Source: Herminiimonas fonticola (GTDB lineage Bacteria > Pseudomonadota > Gammaproteobacteria > Burkholderiales > Burkholderiaceae_D). Taken from it: a stretch of DNA of 64,000 nucleotides. The position numbers were made by a program, and so were the translations under genes. Positions within the stretch are counted from its first letter, which is position 1, and the number at the start of each line of letters is the position of its first letter. The stretch is taken from the NCBI RefSeq assembly GCF_003293745.1, contig NZ_PTLZ01000001.1, forward strand, positions 1,178,001 through 1,242,000, read 5' to 3'. The notes beneath the pieces were generated by a model that did not search any database, was not told where the DNA came from, and saw only the letters and a program-made list of their open reading frames with translations. Shown in pieces: positions 14,896-19,130 of the stretch.

Positions 14896-14986
14896 TTGAT
14901 GGATGTGAACGCTGGAAAATATAAGTGGTCGAACCTAAGCTGAACCGTGAGAAAAAAGTATCTCTCCATCAAGATTGCGGAACATC

Positions 14987-16213
14987 ATGAACGTACAGAC
15001 AGAACGCATTTTCCTGAATGAGTTGCCCTTGCGCTATGAAGCTGTACGCGCACGTTCGATCGCACTGGCAGAACCATTGTCGGAAGAAGATTGTTGTGCG
15101 CAATCGATGCCGGATGCAAGTCCTGTCAAATGGCATTTGGCGCACACCACCTGGTTTTTCGAAACATTTGTTCTCGAACGTTTTGAACCTAATTTTCAAC
15201 CGCATCATCCAGCCTTCCGCGTCCTCTTCAATTCTTATTACAACGGTATCGGCGACAAGCATGCGCGTGCGCAGCGCGGCTTGCTGACGCGCCCGCCATT
15301 TGCAGATGTGTTGAGCTATAGACGTGATGTCGATGCGCGCATCATGACTTTGCTGGCACATCCGTTTGCGGACTATGCCTATACCGAGCTGAACAATTTG
15401 CTGGAACTGGGTTTGCAACACGAGCAGCAGCATCAGGAATTGATGATGACTGACGTCTTGCATCTGCTGTCATGCAATCCATTGAAGCCAGCCTATGCTG
15501 AAACGCCAAGACTGGTTGCAAAACCTGCAGCAGAAATGGAGTGGCTGTCTTTCGATGGCGGCGTGGTGCAGATCGGGCATGACGATCAGGAATTTTGTTT
15601 CGATAACGAGATGCCTGTGCACAGACAATTCCTTGAACCGTATGCGCTCGCATCGCGTTTGGTCACGAATCGTGAATACCTGAATTTCGTCGAATCCGGT
15701 GCGTATGAAAATCCGATTGTATGGTTGTCGGAAGGATGGGATTGGGTGCAGACACAGCAATGGATGCGTCCCTTGTATTGGCAAAGAAATGACGATGCGT
15801 GGCAGGTATTCACCTTGCATGGATTGCAGGCCTTGAACCTTGATGCTGCGGTAACGCAGATTTCCTACTTTGAGGCGGACGCTTATGCGCGCTGGGCTGG
15901 TGCGCGTTTGCCTACAGAAGCAGAGTGGGAAAATGCAGCAATACAGTCGCTGAATGCAACTGATAACCCGACAGACAGCATGCAGTTTTTCGGCCACTGC
16001 TGGCAATGGACGTCCAGTAGTTATTCGCCTTATCCCGGCTATGTAACTGCAGCCGGTGCATTGGGTGAATACAACGGCAAGTTCATGTCCAACCAGTATG
16101 TATTGCGCGGCTCATCCTGCGTGACGCCGGACGGACATAGTCGTACGACGTATCGCAACTTCTTCCCGGCAACCGCGCGCTGGCAGTTTTCCGGAATCAG
16201 ATTGGCACGATAA
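14987..16213 (+). CDS. egtB: Hercynine oxygenase / sulfoxide synthase EgtB
   Basis: 408 residues. The N-terminal DinB-like domain supplies the iron ligands: WHLAH (His50/His53) and HEQQHQE (His145, His149). The C-terminal half is a formylglycine-generating-enzyme-like domain (ARLPTEAEWE, CWQWTSS, then VLRGSSC and YRNFFP). EgtB joins hercynine to a thiol donor (cysteine or gamma-glutamylcysteine) using O2. I prefer the ATG at 14987; a TTG at 14975 adds four residues. Without egtC nearby, cysteine may be the direct donor, but that is inference. A bidirectional terminator follows. Confidence 0.92.
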   Translation: MNVQTERIFLNELPLRYEAVRARSIALAEPLSEEDCCAQSMPDASPVKWHLAHTTWFFETFVLERFEPNFQPHHPAFRVLFNSYYNGIGDKHARAQRGLLTRPPFADVLSYRRDVDARIMTLLAHPFADYAYTELNNLLELGLQHEQQHQELMMTDVLHLLSCNPLKPAYAETPRLVAKPAAEMEWLSFDGGVVQIGHDDQEFCFDNEMPVHRQFLEPYALASRLVTNREYLNFVESGAYENPIVWLSEGWDWVQTQQWMRPLYWQRNDDAWQVFTLHGLQALNLDAAVTQISYFEADAYARWAGARLPTEAEWENAAIQSLNATDNPTDSMQFFGHCWQWTSSSYSPYPGYVTAAGALGEYNGKFMSNQYVLRGSSCVTPDGHSRTTYRNFFPATARWQFSGIRLAR

Positions 16214-16282: not shown

Positions 16283-17944
16283 TTATTTCTCAGCCAAAGC
16301 CAGATCGCGATTGACTGCACTCAAGACCGCACGGAACGATGCGGTGACGATGTTGCCATCAATGCCGACGCCGAAACGTGTTGCGCCGTTGTTCACGCGC
16401 AGTTCGACATAGCTTGCCGCATTTGCGCTGGCGCCGGCACCGATCGCGTGTTCATGGAAATCCATCAGCTTGATGTCGAGTTCCAATGCATTGATGAATG
16501 CGTCGATAGGGCCATTGCCGGCACCTTGTACAGATACCGCCTTGCCATCTTTTTCAAGATCGACCTTGATCTGCACTTCGCCGCTTTTTGTATCGTCGAT
16601 GTGGTGGCCGCGATATTGATATGGCGTGACTGCATTCAGATATTCACTGTTGAAAATTTTGTGAATATCGTTGGCAGCCACTTCACCACCGGTTTCATCG
16701 GTGATGCGTTGTACTGCGCGACTGAATTCGATCTGCAGGCGACGCGGCAATACGAGGCCGTATTCCTGCTCCAGCAAATACGTCATGCCGCCTTTACCCG
16801 ACTGGCTATTGACGCGAATCACCGCATCGTAGCTGCGACCCAGATCTGCAGGGTCAACCGGCATGTAAGGGACTTCCCAGATGGCGTCCGGCTGCTGTTT
16901 CGCAAAACCCTTCTTGATCGCATCCTGATGCGAACCGGAGAATGCGGTGTACACCAGATCGCCGACATACGGATGACGCGGATGCACCGGAATTTGATTG
17001 CATTCTTCCACGCACTGACGCACTGCATCAATGTCCGAAAAATCCAGACCCGGATTGATACCTTGCGAATACAGATTGAGAGCAAGCGTCACCAGATCCA
17101 CATTGCCGGTACGTTCGCCATTGCCAAACAAGCAGCCTTCGACACGATCGGCGCCAGCCATCACAGCCAGTTCGGCTGCCGCTACTGCACAACCTCTGTC
17201 GTTGTGCGGGTGCACGCTGATGAGGATGGAATCGCGACGTGCGAGATTGCGATGCATCCATTCCACCTGATCGGCGTAAACGTTCGGTGTGCTGGCTTCC
17301 ACCGTGCCTGGCAAGTTGATGATCATCTTGCGCTCTGGCGTCGGTTGCCATGCTTCGGATACGGCGTCGCAGATTTCTTTCGCGAATTCGAGTTCTGTCA
17401 TGCTGAAGGCTTCCGGCGAATACTGGAATACCCATTCCGTTTCCGGATGCGCATCGGTCAATTCGCGAACCAGTTTGGTACCTTTGACTGCCAGTTCTTT
17501 CACTTCTTCCTTCGACATATTAAATACGATCCGACGGAATGATGGTGCCGTGGCGTTGTACATATGAACGATGGCGCGGCGTGAACCGATGACAGATTCG
17601 ACGGTGCGACGTATCAGGTCTTCGCGGGCTGGCGTCAATACTTCGATCGTGACGTCGTCCGGAATACGTTTCTCTTCGATCAGTTTGCGTACGAAATCGA
17701 AATCGGTTTGCGATGCGGAAGGGAAGGCGACTTCGATTTCTTTCAGACCGATGTTCAACAGCATGTCGAAGAAACGAAATTTCTTCTCGTGGTTCATCGG
17801 CTCGATCAGTGATTGATTGCCATCGCGCAGATCGGTACTCATCCAGATCGGTGCTTTGCTGATGATCTGGTTCGGCCACGTGCGGTCGGTGAGACGGACG
17901 GGCGGAAATGCGCGGTATTTTTGTTCTGGGTTAGACAACATCAT
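16283..17944 (-). CDS. leuA: 2-isopropylmalate synthase (long LeuA2 type)
   Basis: 553 residues, the long form of the enzyme that condenses acetyl-CoA with 2-oxoisovalerate in the first committed step of leucine synthesis. It carries the DLRDGNQSL metal/substrate motif near residue 40, [19 protein letters not shown], and a C-terminal regulatory domain ([17 protein letters not shown]) that in this family binds leucine for feedback inhibition. Two adjacent ATG codons (17944 and 17941) are possible; AAGGAAAA lies upstream. The gene stands alone and is preceded by a ~340-base leader with a Leu-rich leader peptide, so it is probably controlled by leucine supply as well. Confidence 0.95.
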
Positions 17945-18122
17945 GATGTATTTTCCTTGCTTTGCTGAATAGGGGAGATTCGGTATGGCAGTAGGCTACC
18001 TGACTTGCCACGCGACGCGAGGCCAGGTAACCGATCGGTAGTAATAGCAAAGCACGCGCACAGGACAACACGGCGAAAAGAGCGCCAGCGATGAACGATG
18101 CAGGAAGGGCCTTGATAGTCAT
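17931..18122 (-). CDS. Possible second leader frame overlapping the leuA start
   Basis: A 63-codon open frame beginning ATG at 18122 in the leuA leader. It contains the Leu codons TTG CTA TTA CTA in a row, then CCG (protein [16 protein letters not shown], residues ~22-37). A strong hairpin (17994-18032) starts right after the Leu run. The TAA stop at 17931 lies 14 bases inside leuA, so ribosomes reading this frame would end over the leuA start. I see no strong ribosome binding site. It could be a second sensing frame or chance; the protein itself matches nothing I know. Confidence 0.3.
17994..18032 (-). promoter_or_regulatory. Leader hairpin just upstream of leuA
   Basis: On the transcript, GGTTACCTG pairs with CAGGTAGCC (9 pairs, one G-U), extended inward by GCC/GGC after a small bulge. 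It begins 7 bases downstream of the four Leu codons of the 63-codon frame and ends about 50 bases before the leuA start. No T run follows, so it is not an intrinsic terminator. Confidence 0.5.
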
Positions 18123-18183
18123 TTTTTCGGGTGAAACCTTGGTGTTTGATAATGCACCGGGTGAACAGAACCGGCAGGAACAA

Positions 18184-18227
18184 CAGCGCGTACGATCAGT
18201 TTAATCGTAGCGATAGCAGTAGCGCTG
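18184..18227 (-). promoter_or_regulatory. Leader-peptide hairpin of the leuA leader
   Basis: On the transcript, CAGCGC pairs with GCGCTG (outer). Inside it CGCTACGAT pairs with ATCGTA-GCG (one bulged base) around a 7-base loop that includes the start of the leader stop region. The left arm is made of Leu codons, so a ribosome stalled at them would open this hairpin, as in classical attenuators. Confidence 0.5.
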
Positions 18228-18285
18228 CTAGCAGGGAGCTGGCAGCGTACGAGGTGGTGCGGGATTGAAAAGGTGTCGCGGACAT
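18196..18285 (-). CDS. Leu-rich leader peptide of leuA (attenuation)
   Basis: A 29-codon frame, ATG at 18285 and TGA at 18198-18196. The C-terminal half is SSLLAALLLSLRLN: 7 Leu in 11 residues, encoded by four CUA, two CUG and one UUA. CUA is normally rare in genomes of this kind, and runs of rare cognate codons are the hallmark of attenuator leader peptides. The codons lie within a hairpin-forming stretch. The frame has no ribosome binding site, but the predicted -10 (TAAAGT) ends 6 bases before its ATG, so it may be read from a leaderless transcript end. Function is inferred from composition and position upstream of leuA. Confidence 0.65.
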   Translation of the reverse strand: MSATPFQSRTTSYAASSLLAALLLSLRLN

Positions 18286-18291
18286 GTAGCC

Positions 18292-18321
18292 ACTTTAGGT
18301 GATCGCGGCAGCCCTTGTCAA
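18292..18321 (-). promoter_or_regulatory. Predicted sigma-70 promoter of the leuA leader
   Basis: A perfect TTGACA (18321-18316) and TAAAGT (18297-18292) with an 18-base spacer. The -35 contains the TGA stop codon of the upstream dioxygenase gene. Transcription would begin near 18285, at or next to the leader peptide ATG. Confidence 0.5.
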
Positions 18322-19130
18322 GTTTTGGCTATTTCTCCAAACGCGATTGCCGAGACGACAACATTTATTACGGTGTCCTGGAAGATCCGTTTCCCTTTGT
18401 CGGCACCTGCTGCGCCAGCCGCCACCATCAAGGGCAGCAAGTGATCCGGATGCGGCTGTACTTCGCGTGCATTTGGCGCATCTTGCCAGTGCTGCAACAA
18501 CGTATTGCGCTCAGCTTCGTCCTGCGTTGCCATGTTGGCCAGCCAGTCATCGAAATGTTCGGAGGCTTCCCTGAACGCAGGGCTGAAGCCTCGCATATTG
18601 TGAAAGCTCATGCCGCTGCCTATGATCAACACCCCTTCGCTGCGCAATGCCTGCAGAGCTTCACCCGCGCGTATGTGTGTGGCGGGATCGAGTCCTTTTT
18701 TCATCGACAACTGTACGAGTGGAATATCTGCATCCGGATTCATTACCTTCAAGGGAATGAAGACGCCGTGATCCCAACCGCGTTGCGCATCGAGGTGCGC
18801 CGGCAGTCCGGCTTCGACCAGCAGATTTTGCACGCGTGCGGCCAGTTCCGGTGCGCCTGGTGCAGGATGAGTCAGTGCATAAGTATGTGCCGGGAAGCCG
18901 TGATAATCGTAAATCAGTGACGGCTGCGGATTGGCTCCTACAGTAAATTCTTCCTCTTCCCAATGGCCGGAAATAATCAGTATCGCCTTCGGACGTACAC
19001 CTACCGCCTTGGTCAGATTGCGTAAAAAATCCGCCATGTGATCCCACATATGCGGATCCCCCGGCCACTCCATGAAAAAACAGGGGCCGCCGCCGTGCGG
19101 GATGAAGAGAGTGGGAAGTATCTTGTGCAT
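18318..19130 (-). CDS. DODA-type extradiol dioxygenase (YgiD-like)
   Basis: 270 residues from the ATG at 19130; the frame extends 15 codons further but the family begins at LPTLFIPHGGGPCFFMEWPG. Members are class III extradiol dioxygenases with a non-haem metal. Candidate ligands are His in FIPHGGG, HPAPGAPELA, and SFHNMRGF. Related bacterial proteins are annotated 4,5-DOPA dioxygenase; the physiological substrate here is unknown. Its TGA stop is embedded in the predicted leuA -35 element, so read-through into the leu leader is possible. Confidence 0.87.
   Translation of the reverse strand: MHKILPTLFIPHGGGPCFFMEWPGDPHMWDHMADFLRNLTKAVGVRPKAILIISGHWEEEEFTVGANPQPSLIYDYHGFPAHTYALTHPAPGAPELAARVQNLLVEAGLPAHLDAQRGWDHGVFIPLKVMNPDADIPLVQLSMKKGLDPATHIRAGEALQALRSEGVLIIGSGMSFHNMRGFSPAFREASEHFDDWLANMATQDEAERNTLLQHWQDAPNAREVQPHPDHLLPLMVAAGAAGADKGKRIFQDTVINVVVSAIAFGEIAKT

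Follow-up and report, generated by a model that had tools for sequence, protein, structure and literature searches.

Gene organization at the leuA2 locus

The leader described here lies on the minus strand, upstream of a leuA gene for a type-2 2-isopropylmalate synthase, within a stretch of 64 kb that was analysed as a whole (hereafter designated the window). Since a leuA gene of the TIGR00973 type is present in the same genome, on another contig about 4 kb downstream of ilvB, the gene in the window is a second leuA of the genome and is named leuA2. Its nearest titled records, among which those of the genome itself may be absent, are from Herminiimonas, Janthinobacterium, Herbaspirillum, Duganella, and Noviherbaspirillum, and fit the Oxalobacteraceae named by the initial annotation of this DNA. 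The gene, the two short frames upstream of it, and the promoter are located as follows.

16283–17944, minus strand: leuA2, type-2 (TIGR00970) 2-isopropylmalate synthase (TIGR00970 score, 805.7 bits; cut-off, 697.4)
17954–17958, minus strand: AAGGA, likely Shine-Dalgarno sequence of leuA (by eye)
17931–18122, minus strand: leader 2, second Leu-run frame, which in the window runs past the leuA start (open reading frame list, relatives)
18187–18212, minus strand: hairpin at the end of leader 1, covering its last Leu codons and its stop (folding of genus members)
18196–18285, minus strand: leader 1, a Leu-rich frame with 29 codons and a stop, apparently leaderless (sequence, conservation, promoter geometry)
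18292–18297, minus strand: TAAAGT, -10 hexamer ending 6 nt upstream of the ATG of leader 1 (promoter scan, conserved)
18316–18321, minus strand: -35 hexamer TTGACA (promoter scan; near-fixed distance from the leader-1 ATG in relatives)

Beside leuA2, the plus strand of the window carries a histidine-specific methyltransferase (PF10017; 13933–14895) and a DinB_2/FGE-sulfatase protein (14975–16213), a pair that resembles EgtD and EgtB of ergothioneine synthesis.

A Leu-rich frame at the predicted start of the transcript

The frame at 18285–18196 (minus strand), which the initial annotation had put forward as a leucine attenuation leader peptide, begins with ATG, comprises 29 codons, and ends with TGA (peptide, MSATPFQSRTTSYAASSLLAALLLSLRLN); as stated there, seven of its last 12 codons encode Leu, and four of these are CTA, the others being two CTG and one TTA. 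The 64-kb window contains 616 ATG frames of 12–60 codons on its two strands, and no other among them reaches 6 Leu in the last 12 codons or has as many as 4 CTA. When the 387-nt leader was subjected to 5000 dinucleotide shuffles, a frame with at least 6 Leu arose in 14, and one with at least 6 Leu together with at least 4 CTA in a single shuffle. Of 60 genomes (own included), 37 carry leuA2, and most of the 30 loci fetched from these contain a short Leu-rich frame about 280–450 nt upstream of the gene; the frame and its Leu codons, on whose conservation the annotation had made its proposal depend, are thus kept in relatives. Moreover, CTA accounts for 46.5% of the 331 Leu codons of leader 1 in the first set of loci and for 57% of 365 in a further set, as compared with a background of 3.6% of the Leu codons in long open reading frames of the window (38 ATG frames of at least 250 residues, mechanically chosen). 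CUA codons are also used by the leu leader peptide of Escherichia coli.

An excess of third-position changes, sought in both leaders within the genus, was not found, the codon positions being no more variable at the third; purifying selection on the leader peptides was rejected on this ground, and conserved peptides are not claimed. Because this excess is absent, the conservation of the frames rests on Leu codons, starts, stops, and gaps in multiples of three, as judged by eye.

The hairpin that the annotation had recognized at the Leu codons does exist in the window, its arms running from 18212 to 18187 with one bulged C, and it recurs at the same spot in 10 of 10 genus members folded, where some bases have changed yet still pair (by eye). 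Outside the genus, structure at this place is weaker and exceeds shuffles only mildly (mean z, -0.82 over 37 loci, genus included), and the entire 371-nt leader folds no better than its shuffles (z, -0.85). The hairpin is clear only in the genus, and the role of best-supported RNA structure belongs not to it but to stem S1 in leader 2, nearer to leuA.

The good -35 that the annotation had noted upstream (TTGACA, 18321–18316) is paired with the -10 TAAAGT at a spacing of 18 nt, and this is the sole promoter-like site in a scan of 17900–18500. Transcription usually starts about 7 nt downstream of a -10, and because this -10 ends 6 nt before the ATG of leader 1, the start is predicted at the A of that codon (18285) or beside it. 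A start downstream of 18196 had been named as contrary to the proposal; the conserved promoter predicts one at the leader-1 ATG. In terms of sequence, the promoter is predicted to set +1 on or next to the leader AUG, the arrangement of a leaderless leader peptide, and leaderless transcripts are reported to occur in Burkholderia.

This geometry was found throughout the relatives. A promoter with at least 5 of 6 matches in the -35 and TAnnnT ending 5–9 nt before the leader-1 ATG is present at 41 of the 43 loci where leader 1 could be placed, a result favoured by the use of an inner ATG with a promoter before it at L013, L016, L023, L027, L039, and L066; the -10 lies exactly 6 nt before the ATG in 22 of those 41, whereas 0 of 151 other ATGs of the same stretches reach even 4 of 6 -35 matches. 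The two loci without it are one Leptolyngbya and one Hydrocarboniphaga locus. Outside the 43 are loci at which no leader 1 was placed (L017, L020, L022, L026, L029, and Alcaligenaceae- and Cupriavidus-type loci, among others) and two skipped by the script (L011 and L030). The same rule was re-run over every ATG, with no choice among ATGs, on 57 loci of one family, all related, from genomes new to the earlier sets. Among the 55 that hold leuA2, 50 have a single promoter-ATG, with the exact 18/6 spacing in 44 of the 50, and 46 of the 50 open a frame of 10–60 codons with at least 4 Leu in the last 13 (Fisher p, 3e-14 versus other ATGs); when two stretches already used are removed, the counts become 48 and 44 of 53. 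Another 94 ATGs without a promoter also open Leu-rich short frames in this set (leader 2 and nested ATGs).

A second Leu-run frame and a conserved RNA element

Absent from the initial annotation were the second Leu frame (18122–17931) and a conserved element that spans 18050–17982, the parts of which are as follows.

18039–18050, minus strand: Leu run of leader 2, TTG CTA TTA CTA (sequence; relatives compared)
18022–18032, minus strand: stem S1, 5' strand, GGTTACCTGGC (RNAalifold, covariation)
18007–18011, minus strand: pairing S2, 5' strand, GTGGC, in the S1 loop (covariation)
17994–18004, minus strand: stem S1, 3' strand, GTCAGGTAGCC (RNAalifold, covariation)
17985–17989, minus strand: pairing S2, 3' strand, GCCAT, in most relatives GCCAC (covariation)

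Leader 2 starts after a gap of 73 nt from leader 1, and the DNA is strongly conserved from its Leu run onwards, the peptides of relatives reading LLPLPIGCLASR, LLLKLPTGCRA, and the like. In the 8 codons before S1, the mean number of Leu is 3.6, with at least 3 in 63 of 73 loci, counts inflated by taking at each locus the frame with the most Leu codons; 51% of the Leu codons among these 8 are CTA. An in-frame ATG is found within 160 nt at 71 of the 73 loci, the two without it being of the Herbaspirillum type. By eye, a purine-rich ribosome site (AGGAAAG, GGAG) precedes this ATG in many loci, and no clear Shine-Dalgarno sequence is seen for leader 2 of the window itself or of its genus. At 47 of the 73 loci, the stop codon of the frame lies in the S1 loop, at 35 of them directly after the 5' strand of S1; the remaining 26 stops lie beyond the loop (24, window included) or before it (2). 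Relatives of leader 2 were sought in viral contigs and none was found. A sub-threshold Pfam match of the frame (17931–18122) to Caveolin (20.4 bits; cut-off, 25) is probably an artefact of its hydrophobic stretch.

RNAalifold gave the 11-bp stem S1 and two further pairs in its loop. In an alignment of 73 loci that had been fitted to S1, 97.4% of the cells are paired, with two-sided changes at 8 of 11 pairs and 76 two-sided cells versus 17.5 in shuffles, cells that, with the sequences chosen for matching or showing the motif and near relatives included, are not independent events; slid controls pair at 16–52%. In 23 sequences aligned beforehand without the model, S1 pairs in 97.6% of cells, with two-sided changes at 5 of 11 pairs and 22 two-sided cells versus 5.7. 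Pairing S2, between GUGGC in the S1 loop and the downstream GCCAC, was not part of the alignment model and is 95.2% paired over the same 73 loci, with two-sided changes at 3 of 5 pairs (11 two-sided cells versus 1.7 in shuffles); on the first 23 sequences it had found little support (87.0% versus 86.1%, a slid version scoring higher covariation). The 73 sequences take in 25 of the first 30 loci, the near-duplicates L004 and L006 being left out together with L025, L026, and L029, in which no motif was seen. The sequence around S1 is unusually conserved (CUACCGAUCGG, GUGGC, and GCCAC). The two pairings, S1 and S2, could be combined into a pseudoknot or could be alternatives to each other.

Rfam contains a leucine operon leader entry. 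In the 64-kb window, Rfam gave two tRNAs only and no leader family; for 17900–18400 with E values up to 10, only two snoRNA-type chance matches appeared, and 19 related loci gave none. A known Rfam element was rejected because neither the leader in the window nor these loci matched a family.

Distribution of the element and its link to leuA2

In 399 genomes of the order, a scan with R1, a model built on the element, gave 31 matches that fall in 30 genomes (own included), and 30 of the 31 lie before a type-2 leuA, 29 of these being among the 30 loci fetched and the exception being L060 (E, 0.006); the 31st is a second match in the genome of L046, likewise before leuA2. One genome (L239, L046) has two type-2 leuA genes, each preceded by the element. 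A wider model (R2) matched in 13 of 369 genomes of the class; apart from the window, this set has 12 loci, and leuA2 lies downstream in all but the three weakest matches (9 of 12). Within the family, 83 of 145 genomes match, and the two of the 57 further loci that have no leuA2 are L238, a weak second match, and L232. At L232/L240 (L240:1500–2000), both leaders and S1/S2 are present with no leuA2 in the next 3.6 kb, a cassette that perhaps lost its gene.

Among 80 titled leuA2 loci, 24 match the element at E ≤ 0.01, including Herbaspirillum, Duganella, Massilia, Cupriavidus, Pandoraea, Achromobacter, Castellaniella, Zoogloea, and Chitinimonas. Weak matches also lie before three cyanobacterial leuA2 genes (L097, L113, and L132), with E values of 0.0091 for Leptolyngbyaceae, 0.03 for Calothrix, and 0.4 for Chlorogloeopsis, and a fourth cyanobacterial locus (L111) has none. 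The cyanobacterial second frames read LLRLxxGCQ, resembling LRLRPGCQ of Zoogloea; these sequences are suggestive of a transfer of the leader together with the type-2 leuA gene. No plasmid copies of the leader were found. A search for a similar leader before ilvB (ATG frame of 10–60 codons with at least 6 Ile, Leu, or Val in 12) found none in 15 loci, those fetched from among 32 matches in 30 genomes; the ilvB of the window genome itself lies outside this set.

Proposed mechanism and read-out

The leuA2 upstream region contains what marks a leader-peptide attenuator, that is, a short upstream frame rich in codons for the end product of the pathway (Leu), and it contains two such short frames in series within one leader. 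On account of these frames, their codon bias, the promoter geometry, the S1/S2 covariation, and the link to leuA2, we consider the region to be probably (roughly 75%) a tandem, ribosome-sensing, leucine-responsive leader with two Leu-rich frames. Hence the idea of a leucine leader peptide for leuA, advanced in the initial annotation, is well supported, but its classical form with a single leader is not, as there are two in tandem and the first is apparently leaderless. A more detailed version has, in our estimate, slightly less than an even chance of being right: the frames would be two serial leucine sensors, frame 1 leaderless and frame 2, in many lineages, led by a Shine-Dalgarno sequence; frame 2 would switch a pseudoknot-capable element that has no intrinsic terminator; and the whole would represent an RNA family not included in Rfam, one that accompanies type-2 leuA in the Burkholderiales, in further beta- and gammaproteobacteria, and even in some cyanobacteria.

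In the proposed mechanism, transcription would start at the A of the leader-1 ATG, and a ribosome would load directly on the 5' end and read the CUA-rich Leu run of leader 1; in leader 2, it would meet another Leu run immediately before the 11-bp stem S1. With charged tRNA-Leu plentiful, ribosomes would pass through both frames, and in most relatives the second ribosome would end in the S1 loop, so that S1 would be blocked and GUGGC would be free to pair with GCCAC in S2. With Leu short, ribosomes would stall on the Leu codons just upstream, S1 would form, and transcription would reach leuA2. The positions of the frames would allow this, as a ribosome at the stop in the loop would cover S1 and one stalled on the Leu run would leave most of S1 free. 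Leaderless translation, stalling, the direction of the switch, and the exclusivity of S1 and S2 are what we infer here.

As to the read-out, premature and probably Rho-dependent termination of transcription is proposed tentatively, with a chance somewhat short of even. The initial annotation had remarked that no U-tailed terminator follows the leader, and indeed a scan of 17900–18500 found none, nor is one common to the relatives. Terminator-like sites occur in 9 of 34, 5 of 19, and 6 of 15 loci versus 4.8, 5.6, and 2.4 in shuffles, on the basis of which an intrinsic terminator was rejected as a common feature; since two of the three groups exceed the shuffles about twofold, such a terminator may still exist in individual lineages. 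Attenuators of a Rho-dependent or translational type can dispense with one. Rho-dependent termination is favoured because such sites are not common to the loci and because the RNA has much C and little G: the fractions are 0.38–0.39 for C and 0.21–0.24 for G in the 40 nt directly downstream of leader 1, and 0.36 for C and 0.15 for G in the 15 nt directly downstream of S2, both trends weakening further on, as compared with C at 0.31 and G at 0.26 at the leuA start. This composition, together with a distance from S2 to leuA that ranges from 25 to 172 nt across loci, favours a transcriptional read-out over masking of the leuA ribosome site.

The same variable distance bears on an unlikely, though not negligible, alternative, in which the read-out is translational, leader 2 being coupled to leuA2 such that the position of the ribosome opens or closes the leuA2 start with no premature termination. 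In the window, leader 2 indeed overlaps the leuA start (stop at 17931), as do the leader-2 frames of Zoogloea and Chitinimonas, which also run into it. Moreover, the Leu-run stretch GCUUUGCU (18053–18046) is complementary to AGCAAAGC (17966–17959) beside the leuA ribosome site, and the two segments are paired in the minimum-energy fold of the window. Beyond the window, however, this base stem was recognized by eye in a single locus, that of the closest relative, L002, and it was not retained as a general feature; leader 2 ends within the S1 loop at 47 of the 73 loci, and a spacing of 25 to 172 nt between S2 and leuA likewise speaks against such coupling. The window is itself a variant, its leader 2 running past the loop to 17931 over the leuA start, so that coupling may add to the control.

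It is improbable that S1/S2 acts as a pseudoknot with a protein or small-molecule ligand, the Leu codons being secondary. Such a role would suit the unusual sequence conservation around S1 and the possibility that S1 and S2 form jointly, but it leaves aside the 63 of 73 loci with at least 3 Leu in the 8 codons before S1, half of them CTA, the 35 of 73 in which the frame stops directly after the 5' strand of S1, and leader 1, which has the same codon bias with no S1. We regard as highly improbable a classical single attenuator at leader 1 with leader 2 incidental: leader 1 and its hairpin are conserved in the genus, but the best-supported structure lies in leader 2, and loci of the Alcaligenaceae type seem to retain both leader 2 and the element, while no leader 1 was seen in the 450–500 nt covered. 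That the Leu-rich frames are due to chance, or encode peptides acting in trans, is hardly credible: the missing third-position excess does deny support to selection on the peptide sequences, but only 1 of 616 short window frames is so Leu-rich, the promoter-ATG geometry, accompanied by CTA bias, recurs in both sets of loci (41 of 43 and 50 of 55), and the peptides differ between relatives save for their Leu runs (by eye).

Relation to known leaders

Leader-peptide attenuation at leu, leaderless leader peptides, tandem attenuators, and an actinobacterial leuA element are already in print. The attenuator of the E. coli leu operon (leuABCD) has a 28-residue leader peptide with 4 Leu before leuA (PMC6123439). 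It has in common with the present locus the leader peptide before leuA and, as proposed here, the stalling logic, whereas two leaders, the first apparently leaderless, the lack of a U-tailed terminator and of an Rfam match, and a type-2 leuA situated apart from the ilv cluster distinguish the latter. The LEU element of Actinobacteria (Seliverstov 2005, PMC1262725) consists of an upstream open reading frame with a Leu run before leuA, for which no terminator is described; the Leu run pairs with the Shine-Dalgarno box of leuA, and a protein was proposed as binder (PMC1262725). A Leu-run frame before leuA and the lack of a terminator are shared, as may be a pseudoknot, which S1 and S2, each supported by covariation, could form. 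There are two leaders here, and the stem between Leu run and Shine-Dalgarno sequence was recognized, by eye, in no locus besides the window and L002.

In Sinorhizobium meliloti, the trpL attenuator transcript (rnTrpL) begins with the AUG of the leader peptide (PMC7298713, PMC10117765), and hence offers a leaderless leader peptide in a proteobacterium, there with one leader for tryptophan, here with two for leucine. Two short frames in series in one leader mRNA are known from the tandem attenuators of the Salmonella virulence operon mgtCBR, in which they sense different signals, ATP and proline (PMC3641672). Unlike these, both frames of the present leader are Leu-rich and the gene is biosynthetic; the shared Leu richness argues against an mgtCBR-type response to different signals. 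Leader peptides at branched-chain genes are also reported for ilvBNC and leuA of Corynebacterium, and at ilvBNC a cited title reports formation of the leader peptide without a ribosome binding site (PMC4046766, PMC3890552, PMC10272879); those leaders differ in being single, in belonging to another phylum, and, at ilvB, in having a terminator.

In the open-access literature searched, as judged by titles and the beginnings of abstracts, no description was found of the cassette or of a leuA leader of a named betaproteobacterium, and the word leuA is absent from the main text of PMC2965389, PMC8632094, PMC3460626, and PMC4603805. If the reading is correct, a large bacterial group would possess a widespread amino-acid leader of which the open literature searched gave no description, one sensor would join apparently leaderless and ordinary initiation and provide a natural test of the coupling of leaderless translation with transcription, and the type-2 isopropylmalate synthase would have its own regulation, separate from that of the ilv-linked leuA.

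Variants in other lineages

Upstream of leuA2 in other lineages, several different arrangements were observed. The Alcaligenaceae-type loci, which seem to keep leader 2 and the element, have a promoter-like sequence close before the leader-2 ATG (by eye). The Pseudomonas-type leuA2 has one leader, MKTSHTLIQLRQHRSLCLVSARLPG and relatives, preceded in 17 of 20 loci by TTGCCA-17-TAnnnT ending 6–7 nt before the ATG; upstream of these genes, model R1 gave nothing at E ≤ 1. This leader peptide, encoded by an apparently leaderless frame, has a common stretch, RQHRSLCLVSARL, within it (L081, L083, L084, L088–L095, L098–L100, L104, L107, and L131), and its apparent conservation beyond a mere Leu run could mean that it functions as an arrest peptide. 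In Comamonadaceae and relatives (L106, L119–L121, and L125–L128), a 17–19-codon frame with an LALLL-like run is found (e.g., MNRISLALLLSPDGRRR); its ATG is immediately preceded by a TACATT-like -10, in most cases without a good -35, and the promoter rule is passed by 1 of 10. Finally, U-rich stretches follow the GCCAC of S2 in Achromobacter- and Cupriavidus-type loci (L042, L044, L046, L068, L069, and L073), which by eye come closer to a terminator than the corresponding sequences of Oxalobacteraceae.
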